From contig JACONG010000006.1 of NCBI GenBank assembly GCA_014323865.1, positions 1-64,000 on the forward strand: 64,000 nt of DNA, in the 5' to 3' direction. This document shows, piece after piece, positions 27,371 through 34,470 of the stretch (positions are counted from its first letter, which is position 1; every line of letters starts with the position of its first letter). Below the pieces are notes generated by a model that saw only the letters and a program-made list of their open reading frames with translations, did not search any database and was not told the origin of the DNA. Source of the stretch: Rhodospirillales bacterium (GTDB lineage: Bacteria; Pseudomonadota; Alphaproteobacteria; SP197). The translations under genes and the position numbers were made by a program.

Positions 27371-27892
27371 TCAGGCGGTTAGCGCCGCGACCACCTCATC
27401 GAACACGGCATCAGCGCGCTCATGCATCTCGGCCTCCGTCAGGGGCTGGATCGGATGCTTCACATAGATGGCGCCCGCGTTGAAACCATGGATTTCACGC
27501 CATGCCTTGACCCCGGACTCGAACTCCTCCGAGAACAGGGCGACGGCGGGAAGGCCCTTCCGATCAATCTCCAGCATGTCCTGCAGACTGCACGACGTAC
27601 AAGAGCCTCAATCGGCCAGCGCCTCGACGACGACGTCGCAGCGTTCGGTGATCTCAGCCGTAACGGCGTCGGAGGCCTTCTTGGCGAAGGTCTCCTTGGC
27701 GAACCGCTCGACCTTGATGCCGAGTTCACCAAAGCGCGCCTCAAGCCGGTCAAGCAGCAGATCGCCCTGCCGCTTGGTGATGTCGAGCAATCCGACGGTC
27801 AGACCGTCGAGCGACGCCGGTGGCGCCTTGCGCTCGCGTATCCCGCCCGACCGTTCCGAGGTCGGATCGAGCAGGGTCGTGCTGTGCGTCAT
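27371..27892 (-). CDS. UGSC-family selenoprotein with in-frame UGA (Sec95)
   Basis: Read through a TGA at 27610-27608, the frame encodes 173 residues: 94 before and 78 after the stop. The junction reads CDVVVEALAD-U-GSCTSCSLQ, the defining motif of the UGSC (seleno)protein family, whose other members have Cys or Sec at that position. Upstream ASLDGLTVGLLDI and downstream IDRKGLPAVALFSEEF and VKHPIQPL are family-like, and codon use and GC content are continuous across the TGA. A SECIS-like hairpin follows. The start overlaps the upstream gene's stop (ATGA), so the two are translationally coupled. Family function is unknown; a redox role via U-G-S-C-T-S-C is inference. A simple nonsense mutation is the alternative, but it would have to fall exactly at the conserved Sec/Cys position. 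Confidence 0.88.
27578..27596 (-). promoter_or_regulatory. candidate bacterial SECIS hairpin
   Basis: The mRNA segment GUCGUGCA-GUC-UGCAGGAC forms an 8-bp stem with one G-G mismatch and a GUC apical loop. The loop starts 19 nt after the UGA. From memory, E. coli fdhF has UGCA-GGUC-UGCA, with the loop 18 nt after its UGA, so both the core and the spacing match what SelB recognises. The stem lies inside the coding sequence, as bacterial SECIS elements do. Confidence 0.7.
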
Positions 27893-29307
27893 GGCACAAT
27901 CTCCCTCGTTATGGGTTGCGACCCGCGCGGACCGCTGGCCCAGCCATGGATGATAGTGGAGAATAGCCCGGCGTTGCTACCGGTTCGAACCAACTGGAGG
28001 TCGCCGGGGCCGAATTTCGGAATCAGCGTGCCGTCCGTCGAACGCACCGTGGCACCGGCTTCGACATCGGCTTCGTTGCGCCCTGTGCGATCCATCAGAG
28101 CGTAGAAGATGCGGGCGCGATCCCACCCGGCCGCGCGGTAGACCGACCAGTACTCGCCCGACAGCACCAGCATGGCACCCTGGCCACCACCGGCATCCTG
28201 CGGATGGCCGAAGGCATTGAGTGTCATGGCGATGTTGTCGGTCAGCGCGTCCGGTTCGCGGGCGTTTTCCATGTTGTGGATGCTGGTGCCGCAGAATCCG
28301 AACACGGTCACGGCGGACTTGCCCGGCTCGATGCCGCGTGACTGTGCCAGGGACTGCCAGGCGTCATCCGATTCATCCTCAGCGAAACACAGGCCGAACT
28401 TGCCTGGGTGGCCGAAGGTGGAGCGGTCCGTGCCGCCAGGCATGGCGCCGCCGAGATTGATCACGAGAAGCTGGAGGGCTCGCGCGATCGTGGCGTTCGC
28501 ACGGTTGCCGTGGCCCAGGGCATTGTGGCCGGTGTTCATGCCGATGCGCTTGGCCACAGGGCCGTTCACGACCACGCAGACACCGGCGCCCATCGTGGTC
28601 GACATCAGGCCTTGCCAGGCAAAATCCGGATCCATCGCGGCATCGAGCGCGGCCAACACCACGGGGAGGTGCTCGGGTCGGCATCCGGCCATCACGGCAT
28701 TGATGGCAGCTTTCTCGACTGTGCAGGTCGCACCCGAGGGCGGAATGATACCCAGAACCTCATCGGGCTTGTGGCCTGTGCCGTCGAGCATGCGCAAAAC
28801 GCGGGCCGGTGTCGGTGTCACGACCGGAAGGCCGTCGGTCCAGCCCTGGTCAAAGGCGTACTCCATCGGATCGTCGGGGAAGTCGACGATGACCTTGCAC
28901 GCGCTGAGTCCGGTGTCGCCGAACCGGGCCTGTAGTTCCTCGGCCATGCCGGAGGCGACCGACAGCGATCCGCAGCCGGGCCGTTCCTCGGGTAAGTCGA
29001 TGCCGAGATCGTTGACGCCGGTCAGGTTCTGCCATTCGCCGCGATGCCAGCCGATGACCCTACCCGTCTCGCGGCCGCCCTCACGTCGTATCAGCGTCGG
29101 CACGATGTCGGTTTCAAGCGCGAACGAGGCCTGGAGATCACGATCGTCGATCACGGCAAGCCCGCGCGGAAACTCCGGATTGTCCTGGGAGTAGATCGCC
29201 TTGAGATCGCCCAGCCGCTTCAGTTCGGCCGCCACCGGCGCGATGAGCTGACAGGTCGGACAATCCTCCTTGAGGACAAGTGCGAGGCCGTCTGCGGGCA
29301 GGTCCAT
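27889..29307 (-). CDS. thioredoxin-fold protein, UGSC partner
   Basis: 472 residues. The N-terminal about 90 residues form a thioredoxin-like domain with a CPTC motif (VLKEDCPTCQLIAPVAAEL). A long second domain follows, with FDQGWTDGLPVVTPTPARV, IIPPSGATCTVEKAAINAVM and MNTGHNALGHGNRANATI, then AVTVFGFCGTSIHN. The second domain is of unknown function; homologues occur next to UGSC proteins as I recall. The stop overlaps the UGSC start (ATGA), implying a two-protein system. CPTC could reduce the selenenylsulfide of the UGSC protein; that is inference. Confidence 0.7.
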   Translation of the reverse strand: MDLPADGLALVLKEDCPTCQLIAPVAAELKRLGDLKAIYSQDNPEFPRGLAVIDDRDLQASFALETDIVPTLIRREGGRETGRVIGWHRGEWQNLTGVNDLGIDLPEERPGCGSLSVASGMAEELQARFGDTGLSACKVIVDFPDDPMEYAFDQGWTDGLPVVTPTPARVLRMLDGTGHKPDEVLGIIPPSGATCTVEKAAINAVMAGCRPEHLPVVLAALDAAMDPDFAWQGLMSTTMGAGVCVVVNGPVAKRIGMNTGHNALGHGNRANATIARALQLLVINLGGAMPGGTDRSTFGHPGKFGLCFAEDESDDAWQSLAQSRGIEPGKSAVTVFGFCGTSIHNMENAREPDALTDNIAMTLNAFGHPQDAGGGQGAMLVLSGEYWSVYRAAGWDRARIFYALMDRTGRNEADVEAGATVRSTDGTLIPKFGPGDLQLVRTGSNAGLFSTIIHGWASGPRGSQPITREIVP

Positions 29308-29390: not shown

Positions 29391-29741
29391 ATGTCCGATA
29401 TTCAACGCCTTGAGCCTGCCGCACTCTTCAGCGGCGCCGTCATCCACGGCGACACCGTCTATCTCTCCGGCAAGGTCGCGTCTGACAGCTCGCTTGACGT
29501 GAAGGCCCAGACCCAGGACATTCTCGACCAGATCGATGCCACACTGGCGGCCTGCGGCACCGACAAGTCGAAGCTGCTGACCGTGATGATCTGGCTCACC
29601 GACATGGGCACCTGGGCCGAGATGAATGAGGTCTACACGCCGTGGATCGATCCAGACAACAAGCCCTGCCGCGCCTGCGTTGGCGCGTCGCTCGCGGCAA
29701 CGGAATTCCTCGTCGAGATCCAGTGCGTCGCCGCGCGTTAA
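29391..29741 (+). CDS. RidA/YjgF family protein
   Basis: 116 residues; starts LEPAALFSGAVIHGDTVYLS, contains a DILDQIDATLAACGTDKSKL helix, and ends CRACVGASLAATEFLVEIQC with the conserved Arg and E of the trimer-interface pocket. RidA proteins deaminate reactive enamine/imine intermediates from PLP enzymes. Divergent from the UGSC operon with 83 nt between starts, which must hold both promoters. Ends within the 3' end of the SDR remnant. Confidence 0.88.
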   Translation: MSDIQRLEPAALFSGAVIHGDTVYLSGKVASDSSLDVKAQTQDILDQIDATLAACGTDKSKLLTVMIWLTDMGTWAEMNEVYTPWIDPDNKPCRACVGASLAATEFLVEIQCVAAR

Positions 29742-30085
29742 CGGCAGGCGTATGAGCCGCCGTCGACTTCGAGCAGGGCACCGGTCAGGAACTTCTGATT
29801 GGGATCGGGGAGGAAGCAGCCGGCGTTGTTGACCAGGATGTCGAGGCCGCTCATCCCGTCGATCGCGCCGGCGACCAGCGCCCGGCATGCCGCTGCCCTT
29901 CCGATATCGCCGGGGGCTGAGACCATGTTCTCACCGCCGAGTTCTGCGATGGTCGCCGCCACGTCGTCGCCCTTTCGGCCATTGATCGCGACCCGTGCGC
30001 CGTGCTCCAGGAATGCCTTGGCAGCGGCCTTGCCGATACCGCGGGTCGAACCGGTAATCGGAACGCGTTTGCCCGAGAAGCTCAT
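29738..30085 (-). pseudogene. short-chain dehydrogenase with internal deletion
   Basis: 115 residues instead of about 250. The N-terminal Rossmann part is intact (PITGSTRGIGKAAAKAFLEH, then LDILVNNAG), but after CFLPDPNQ it jumps directly to the C-terminal KFLTGALLEVDGG motif. The catalytic Ser-Tyr-x-x-x-Lys region is missing. Reading frame is preserved, so a short product may be made but cannot be an active dehydrogenase. It is the last gene of an operon with carbonic-anhydrase-like and phytanoyl-dioxygenase genes. Confidence 0.75.
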
Positions 30086-32270: not shown

Positions 32271-32776
32271 GTCCTTCCTTCCGCGACGACTTCACAAAGC
32301 CAATCCTTGAGCAGCAGGGCGCCGGGCTCGGTGCAGGGAGCAAGGGTTTCGCAGGTCACCTTGCTGCACACCGGAATCGCACGATCCCTGGTCAGGCGGG
32401 AGCCCTTCGGTCCGGATCGACATGATGAGGTGAATATCGATGCCGGGGTGGCGATGGCGAAATCCCACGAGCCGCGGCGTGAGCCAGAGCACGGCGAACG
32501 AGGTGGTCGCGCGCACCGTGATGGTCTCGGCATCGGCCGTGTCGAAAATGCCTGTGGTTGCCGAGGTTGGATCCTCGAACGCCTTGCGCACCGTTGGCAG
32601 ACAGGCGTGGCCGAGACGTTCGAACAGGGGAAACCCCGGCGCTCCTCAAGGTTGCGAACCCGGGTGCTGATCGCCTTCGGCGTTCGTCCGGGTCCCCCGG
32701 ATGTACCGGCGAGGCTCTCGCGGCGGGCGAAGACCTCGAGGGCGCGTAGCCAGTTGGCGGGCGGCAACGGGTGCAT
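32267..32776 (-). pseudogene. LysR-family regulator (GcvA-like), frameshifted and truncated
   Basis: The start is intact, with a GGAGG site and ATG at 32776 encoding LPPANWLRALEVFARRESLA. TPKAISTRVRNLEERRGFP continues the helix-turn-helix in the same frame. From about 32590 the effector domain lies in another frame (RATTSFAVLWLTPRLVGFRH, HPGIDIHLIMS). A final frame change ends near 32267. Only about 170 of about 300 codons remain. It is divergent from the MttB-like gene, which it probably once regulated. Confidence 0.7.
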
Positions 32777-32913
32777 CGCGACCTCCTCCTCGTCTGGACA
32801 AAAGTTTTCCTGTATCTCGGCCACAACAGATTTCCTTCGATGTCCTGTCATATCCGCGCGATGCTCTCTGCCCCCATGAGGAGGATCGCGTGGCGCAGGA
32901 AGTGGAGAGCCCG

Positions 32914-34470
32914 ATGGAATCCGGTTCGAGCGGGTCGACATCGAACGGTTCGCGACGTGCTGGCGGTCGTGCGGCACGCCAAGCGCGCCGACGCAGCGAT
33001 CCCGGCCGGGCACCTGCCATCGTTCGGCGCACGATTCCCGTCTACGACCTGCTCGACGACGATGCGCTGGCGGCGATCGAGGCCCAGGCCGACTGGATTC
33101 TGAAGGAGATCGGGATCGAGTTCCGGGGCGACGACGAGGCCCTGGCGCTGTTCCGCGAGGCCGGTTGCAGCATCGACGGTTGCCGGGTGCGCTTCGATCC
33201 CGGTCATGCCACGGCGCTGGCGGCCACTGCGCCCGGCGAATTCCGCATGGAGAGCAGGGACCCGGGCCGATCAATCGTGCTGGGCGGTGACCATGTCGTC
33301 TTCATGCCGGGCTACGGCTCGCCCTTTGTCACCGATCTCGACCGGGGACGGCGTTACGCGACGCTGGAGGACTTCGAGGCCTTCGTGAAGCTGAGTTTCA
33401 TGACGCCATGGCTGCACCACGGCAGCGGAACCGTGTGCGAGCCGGTCGACATCCCGGTCAACAAGCGTCACCTCGACATGGTCTATGCCCATCTGCGCTG
33501 GTCGACCAAGCCGTTCATGGGCGGTGTGACGGCGCCCGATCGCGCCCGGGACTCGATCGAGATGGCGCGGATCGCGTTCGGCGCAGACCATGTAGACGAG
33601 AAATGCGTCATCCAGGCCAACATCAACGTCAACTCGCCGCTGGTCTACGACGGTGTCATGTCGTCGGCCCTGCGCATCTACGCCGAGGCGGGCCAGAGCA
33701 CGGCGATCTCGCCGGCCATCTTCGGTGGCGCGATGGGGCCGGTGACCCAGCCGGCGGTTCTGGCCCAGACCCATGCGGAAATCATCGCCGGGATCGCGCT
33801 GAGCCAGCTCGTGCGGCCGGGCACGCCGGTGGTCTACGGCAACTTCAACACCACGATGAATCTGAAGACCGGCGCGCTGACCTTCGGGACGCCCGAGGCC
33901 AATCTTTCGAACATGGCCTTCGCTCAACTGGGGCGCAGGCTGGGCGTACCGGTGCGTTGCGGCGGTCAGCTCACGGCATCCAATGCGGCTGACGGGCTCG
34001 CCATGCAGGAGTCGACCTCGTTCATGCTGGCCGCAATCCTGGCGGGCTCGAACTTCGTCTATCACGCAGCAGGCTGGCTCGAGGGCGGGCTGACCATGAG
34101 TTACGAGAAGTTCGTCATGGACCTCGACCACTGCGGCATGATGCTGCGCATGATCGCGGGGCTCGAGGTCAACGAAGCGGCATTTGCGAAGGACGCCTAT
34201 GAGGAGGCGGGGCCCGGCCAGGCCTTCTTCGGCACACAGCACACGCTGGCGAACTTCGAGACCGCCAACTATGTCTCCGAGTTGCTCGACGCAGGGCCTT
34301 ACGAGACCTGGATGGAAAACGGTGCGCCCGACGCGGCGCAGCGCGCCAATGGCCGCTGGAAGCAGATGCTGGCCGACTACGAAGCGCCTGCAATCGACCC
34401 GGCTGTCGACGAAGAACTCAGGGATTTCATGACACGGCGCAAGGCCGCCATGCCGGACCAATGGTACTGA
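32914..34470 (+). CDS. MttB-like (trimethylamine/betaine methyltransferase family) protein
   Basis: 518 residues. IPVYDLLDDDALAAIEAQAD, ILKEIGIEFRGDDEALALF, VFMPGYGSPFVTDLDRGRRY and CGGQLTASNAADGLAMQEST are characteristic of the MttB superfamily of corrinoid-protein methyltransferases. There is no in-frame amber codon, so this is a non-pyrrolysine member, the group that includes glycine-betaine methyltransferases. A cognate corrinoid protein gene is not in the window. The ATG at 32914 follows a GTGGAGAG site; the first about 40 residues are Arg/Ser-rich and poorly conserved. Confidence 0.85.
   Translation: MESGSSGSTSNGSRRAGGRAARQARRRSDPGRAPAIVRRTIPVYDLLDDDALAAIEAQADWILKEIGIEFRGDDEALALFREAGCSIDGCRVRFDPGHATALAATAPGEFRMESRDPGRSIVLGGDHVVFMPGYGSPFVTDLDRGRRYATLEDFEAFVKLSFMTPWLHHGSGTVCEPVDIPVNKRHLDMVYAHLRWSTKPFMGGVTAPDRARDSIEMARIAFGADHVDEKCVIQANINVNSPLVYDGVMSSALRIYAEAGQSTAISPAIFGGAMGPVTQPAVLAQTHAEIIAGIALSQLVRPGTPVVYGNFNTTMNLKTGALTFGTPEANLSNMAFAQLGRRLGVPVRCGGQLTASNAADGLAMQESTSFMLAAILAGSNFVYHAAGWLEGGLTMSYEKFVMDLDHCGMMLRMIAGLEVNEAAFAKDAYEEAGPGQAFFGTQHTLANFETANYVSELLDAGPYETWMENGAPDAAQRANGRWKQMLADYEAPAIDPAVDEELRDFMTRRKAAMPDQWY

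Follow-up and report, generated by a model that had tools for sequence, protein, structure and literature searches.

In Escherichia coli, SelB needs two features of the selenocysteine insertion sequence (SECIS), a U that stays unpaired in the 5' strand beneath the apical stem and a G-U in the apical loop. The two E. coli elements retrieved for comparison are those of fdhF, with the core UGCA-GGUC-UGCA and its loop 18 nt after the UGA (as given in the first-pass annotation of the DNA described here, and now confirmed from the fetched sequence), and fdnG, with AGCAA-GUC-UUGCU and 19 nt to the loop. The bacterial SECIS consensus given in the legend of Fig 2 of PMC13188914 comprises an apical loop of 3-9 nt, an upper stem of 4-16 bp, a G at loop position 1 or 2 that is often followed by G or U, a distance of 16-37 nt between UGA and loop and a minimum free energy (MFE) of at most -7.5 kcal/mol. 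The UGSC-containing selenoprotein family is described in PMC2398784, where the GOS data are credited with 255 forms containing Sec and 21 containing Cys, and it appears in the relevant passages of the review literature without assigned function.

The window analysed here, i.e., the whole stretch of 64,000 nt from a Rhodospirillales bacterium, carries on its minus strand a gene of 173 codons (27371..27892) whose open reading frame starts at 27892 and reaches an in-frame UGA at codon 95 (27608..27610, read 27610-27608); read through as far as the stop codon (27373-27371), it gives a product of 173 residues with the motif ALAD-U-GSC-TSC. This frame matches the Pfam family UGSC (PF24696, E 1.9e-41), the sole family matched in Pfam up to E 10, and NCBIfam NF041046 "UGSC family (seleno)protein" (132.4 bits, over the curated cut-off of 125), and with its U-G-S-C motif the protein belongs to the UGSC family. 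The UGA within the UGSC motif and the nearby Cys are common to this protein and to the family as represented by PF24696, NF041046 and the UGSC passages of PMC2398784, from which no notable difference was seen. Conservation among homologues and the occurrence of Cys at the same place in other UGSC homologues point to selenocysteine as the residue encoded by the UGA. A structure model of the protein (mean pLDDT 75, built from 3 sequences) shows an alpha-beta fold of flavodoxin/CheY-like type in which a helix begins at the Sec; its structural matches are to common folds and tell little.

The hairpin following the UGA (GUCGUGCA GUC UGCAGGAC) lies where the first-pass annotation had placed it, at 27578..27596 of the minus strand; 11 nt separate the UGA from the stem and 19 nt separate it from the loop. 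Counting k positions on from the UGA leads to plus-strand base 27608-k, so that 27596-27578 are positions 12-30. Below the apical loop GUC (27586..27588) there are 4 bp (UGCA/UGCA), a G.G mismatch that was absent from that annotation, and 3 bp (GUC/GAC); in predicted folds of the family genomes the structure extends to 27574..27600 (minus strand) by three further pairs under a C.A mismatch. All of this falls within the published consensus: a loop of three nucleotides starting with GU, a stem of 4 bp over the mismatch followed by 3 bp (8 pairs in most relatives), a spacing of 19 nt and an MFE of -16.8 kcal/mol over 48 nt or -10.0 over 27 nt. The hairpin is very probably a genuine bacterial SECIS of known kind in a known selenoprotein family and, as a real selenocysteine signal, would make it almost certain that the UGA is read as selenocysteine. 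The basis for this reading lies in the sequence, namely the UGA, the hairpin, their conservation, the machinery genes and the co-occurrence of these genes with UGSC.

Taken singly, the fold is unremarkable, both against 200 dinucleotide shuffles (z -1.66; 14/200 fold equally well) and against 300 synonymous-codon shuffles of the window's gene (z -0.81, rank 61/300). A loose generic bacterial-SECIS rule made for this analysis is satisfied by 1192 of the 1792 TGAs in the window, and generic criteria give no discrimination in this genome; the single-sequence energy tests and the rule were both set aside as uninformative for this sequence. The UGCA-G..-UGCA core follows only one of the 1792 TGAs. 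Covariance scoring, which the first-pass annotation had proposed, gives 57.3 bits at the hairpin with a family model that includes the hairpin sequence itself, far over the next best scores of 7.7 bits in the window and 16.8 in the genome; the background-level score that the same annotation had named as a refutation was therefore not seen. L123, a homologue that the model does not contain, reaches 44.4 bits. The two weak extra matches in the same genome (16.8 and 16.3 bits) were considered as further SECIS and rejected, neither lying in a selenoprotein-like frame. The hairpin is regarded as more than chance because of the comparative evidence, not because of the single fold. The ordinary energy against synonymous shuffles, together with a stem partly set by the amino acids, speaks for a different reading, in which an ordinary stop codon or a sequencing error accounts for the UGA, the hairpin being a product of chance or a by-product of the C-S-L-Q-D motif; the comparisons that follow make that reading very unlikely.

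The UGSC gene is present in 13 of the 16 genomes of the family, where homology continues across the UGA; each copy has exactly one TGA, in frame and at the UGSC site in 13/13. The same apical hairpin is present in all 13, and its loss from close homologues that share the UGA, which the first-pass annotation had named as grounds for abandoning the idea, was thus not observed. Codons +4, +5, +6, +7, +8, and +10 are the same in 13/13 sequences, and the remaining hairpin codon, +9, alternates between CAG and CAA, its third base being the unpaired mismatch base. Based on the 53 amino-acid-invariant degenerate codons across these sequences, synonymous change is lacking in 6/7 hairpin codons (+4 to +10) vs. 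3/42 codons outside +1 to +13 (Fisher p 4e-5, phylogeny ignored). The two codons preceding the UGA (GCC GAU, 27611-27616) are likewise frozen in 13/13 family members. A UGA shared by 13/13 homologues and followed by frozen synonymous codons argues against a plain stop or an error in the sequence.

At the class level, a UGSC profile search was positive in 37 of 385 genomes and 101 stretches were extracted (the match rows G291:C5, G198:C154, G218:C121, and G200:C149 are not among them), one of which, a 26-aa fragment, was dropped. The site is TGA in 96 of the remaining 100, in keeping with an in-frame TGA in nearly all class-level homologues; four lack it (three Cys forms, which were scored, and L060, which was not scorable). 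The 96 TGA stretches reduce to 89 distinct 45-nt segments, from which 11 sites belonging to other subfamilies (10 where TP follows UGSC or UGAC, 1 UGAC-STAC) were excluded because the loop is shifted or unclear, leaving 78 alphaproteobacterial Sec-type sites that align gap-free. In the subfamily with TP (10 sites: L098, L103, L105, L107-L113) the stem is CCCGC/GCGGG-like and the loop G-U lies one nucleotide nearer the UGA.

Among the 78 distinct aligned sites the loop G-U is invariant (78/78), the loop codon being AGU in 59 and UGU in 19. Serine at this residue is encoded by AGU in 59/59 cases, compared with 5.2% over the 497 Ser codons in the rest of these genes, and cysteine by UGU in 19/19, compared with 23.5% of 68 Cys codons; this constancy of AGU/UGU is a further point against an ordinary stop. 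The 8-pair stem shows standard pairing in 90.5% of 624 cells, with a covariation of 0.174 vs. 0.087 in shuffles (0/500) that is lower with the partner column displaced by 1 to 3 positions. One central pair is C-G in 63 sites and G-C in 15, with no exception; this main compensatory change (C-G to G-C, 15/78) coincides with few amino-acid changes and therefore represents few independent events. Wobble-wobble covariation at two lower-stem pairs falls short of significance (p 0.12 and 0.32). Against synonymous-codon shuffles, the 96 Sec genes have a mean z of -2.0, and 52 of them stand at or below rank 15/300. At the position of the G.G mismatch, 10/78 rows are unpaired; most relatives have a G.U, G.C, or A.U pair and this genus has G.G or G.A. 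That the hairpin is the decaying remnant of a SECIS, the gene itself now ending at the UGA, as such a mismatch might suggest, is extremely improbable, given that the mismatch is common to the whole family, that the other hairpin codons are frozen and that codons 3' of the UGA are still conserved.

The Cys homologues serve as natural controls that separate the selected features of the hairpin (loop G-U and pairing) from those dictated by the protein. Eleven are readable at the loop codon (L094, L096, L115, L124, L125, L145, L146, L147, L148, L150, L151) and none of them (0/11) has AGU or UGU there, although five encode Ser or Cys at the loop residue: UCG (L125), UGC (L146, L148), AGC (L147), and UCC (L150). 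The clearest case for comparison is L125, whose protein motif CGSCTSCSTHD is almost that of the Sec forms and which has UCG at the loop codon and no hairpin, contrary to what a mere by-product of the protein motif would give; its score of 20.5 bits with the covariance model is attributed to sequence similarity. On the other side, some Cys homologues keep the stem: in the haloarchaeal Cys forms the stem is present and the GU loop absent, from which it follows that the protein accounts for part of the stem but not for the loop. One of the three Cys genes scored against synonymous shuffles (L115) ranks 7/300. The features that appear to be under selection are, then, the invariant loop G-U and the pairing, while the stems differ among homologues and are in part shaped by the protein.

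The genome encodes the complete set selA, selB, selC, and selD that defines a Sec-decoding organism, all within 6 kb (about C4:227667 to 233442). The tRNA-Sec (selC) has a UCA anticodon (75.1 bits), and the SelB of this genome is alignable with E. coli SelB (PDB 5lzb) over residues 1-620, including the C-terminal winged-helix stretch. SelD (L130:5668-7908) lies C-terminally in a frame of 746 aa that resembles, in its N-terminal part, an FAD/NAD-dependent oxidoreductase. Neither SelD nor the formate dehydrogenase of this genome has an in-frame TGA at its match, so that this genome offers no further SECIS for comparison. Across the genomes surveyed, a SelB domain occurs in 32 of 34 with UGA-type UGSC vs. 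21 of 351 others (Fisher 3e-30, phylogeny ignored); the two UGA-type genomes lacking a SelB match are 77% and 86% complete, and genomes that have only non-TGA UGSC forms contain SelB in 1/3 cases. At the family level, SelB is found in 13/13 carriers of UGSC and in 1/3 non-carriers. In addition to opposing a plain stop, the sel genes bear on the idea that the UGA is read through as another residue (by tryptophan or near-cognate suppression), the hairpin acting as a general stimulator without SelB. A stable 3' hairpin can indeed stimulate read-through in general, but the tRNA-Sec with its UCA anticodon, the co-occurrence of SelB, the substitution of Cys and not Trp in homologues and a loop sequence constrained beyond what stability alone would require leave this idea with hardly any probability.

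If the hairpin is a SECIS, SelB bound to GTP and selenocysteyl-tRNA-Sec would bind its apical stem-loop through the C-terminal winged-helix domain, the loop G-U being what SelB would read. The hairpin would stand at the ribosome entrance with the UGA positioned in the A site, where delivery of selenocysteine by SelB would let translation go on past the UGA; in the UGSC protein the residue may have a redox role. The first-pass annotation had argued for SelB recognition from the likeness to fdhF. The SECIS reading behind that argument is supported and the sel genes are present; the identity of the stem is not the signal, since homologues use UGGA/UCCA and other stems. The likeness to fdhF consists of the UGCA/UGCA apical stem and the G at the start of the loop, whereas fdhF has a 4-nt loop (GGUC) after 18 nt and a 5' U that is unpaired, and the shared UGCA stem is probably a coincidence. 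By the sequence of the loop and by spacing, fdnG is the better E. coli match: it has the same apical A-GUC-U loop at 19 nt after the UGA, but an AGCAA/UUGCU stem with an unpaired 5' U below it instead of UGCA/UGCA and a G.G mismatch, and it encodes an unrelated protein. The unpaired 5' U under the apical stem, present in both E. coli elements, is absent from the UGSC hairpin, which has there a 1x1 G.G mismatch that is a pair in most relatives.

Although correct, the finding is an ordinary one except for a near-constant unnamed neighbour gene. This upstream partner (27889..29307, minus strand; 472 aa) overlaps the start of the UGSC gene as ATGA. No family was found for it in Pfam or NCBIfam, and its profile gave no match in the PDB; its structure model was set aside at a mean pLDDT of 42.7. 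The first 100 residues look thioredoxin-like and contain CPTC, with weak PDB thioredoxin matches for the N-terminal region and a weak match to TIGR01068 in 3/17 members (best E 0.0012); Cys209, in a M-A-G-C motif (numbering of the 27889-29307 protein), is invariant in 17 aligned members. A relative of the partner is found by tblastn at 104 of 108 UGSC loci (some loci being duplicates of one place), on the same strand as UGSC in 96/96 scored loci (64 upstream, 32 downstream), and in 7/7 plasmid records that carry UGSC (Archaea, Actinomycetota, Betaproteobacteria). In an Arthrobacter plasmid (L150:145-3319) trxB and trxA come first, followed by the partner and then by UGSC in its Cys form. In Acidovorax sp. 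T1 plasmid p2-T1 (L149:2501-2791) the UGSC gene has the UGA, AGU at the loop and an 8-bp stem; the record calls its product hypothetical and has it stop at the Sec UGA, and the adjoining partner gene is without annotation in its table. No mention of the partner was found in the UGSC passages of PMC2398784, PMC9312934, PMC13188914, and PMC7539508, and it may still be reported. Elsewhere in the window there are a gene that matches the Pfam family MTTB (trimethylamine methyltransferase; 32701-34470, E 1.2e-209) and a 115-aa short-chain dehydrogenase frame (29738-30085) that matches the first half of the family profile only and looks internally deleted or frameshifted.

These observations suggest that UGSC and its partner constitute a thioredoxin-fed two-component selenoenzyme. 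A fuller proposal, which we put forward tentatively and at somewhat under even odds, is that of an undescribed two-gene selenoenzyme in which the partner, with its invariant Cys209, would associate with UGSC in a complex, and thioredoxin (which here seems to be fused to the partner N-terminus and in Arthrobacter is encoded by the adjoining trxB-trxA) would feed electrons for the reduction of some substrate in the manner of glycine/proline reductase, though unrelated to it by any test made here, with SelB reading its SECIS by the loop G-U alone, without the bulged U of E. coli. Kinship of UGSC with the glycine/proline reductase family was itself considered and set aside, the Pfam search up to E 10 having returned UGSC alone.

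For the UGSC family, the SECIS reading fixes the reading frame of the gene, which annotation can cut short at its UGA (the Acidovorax sp. T1 plasmid is an instance), and the tight neighbour gene offers a testable route to UGSC function.
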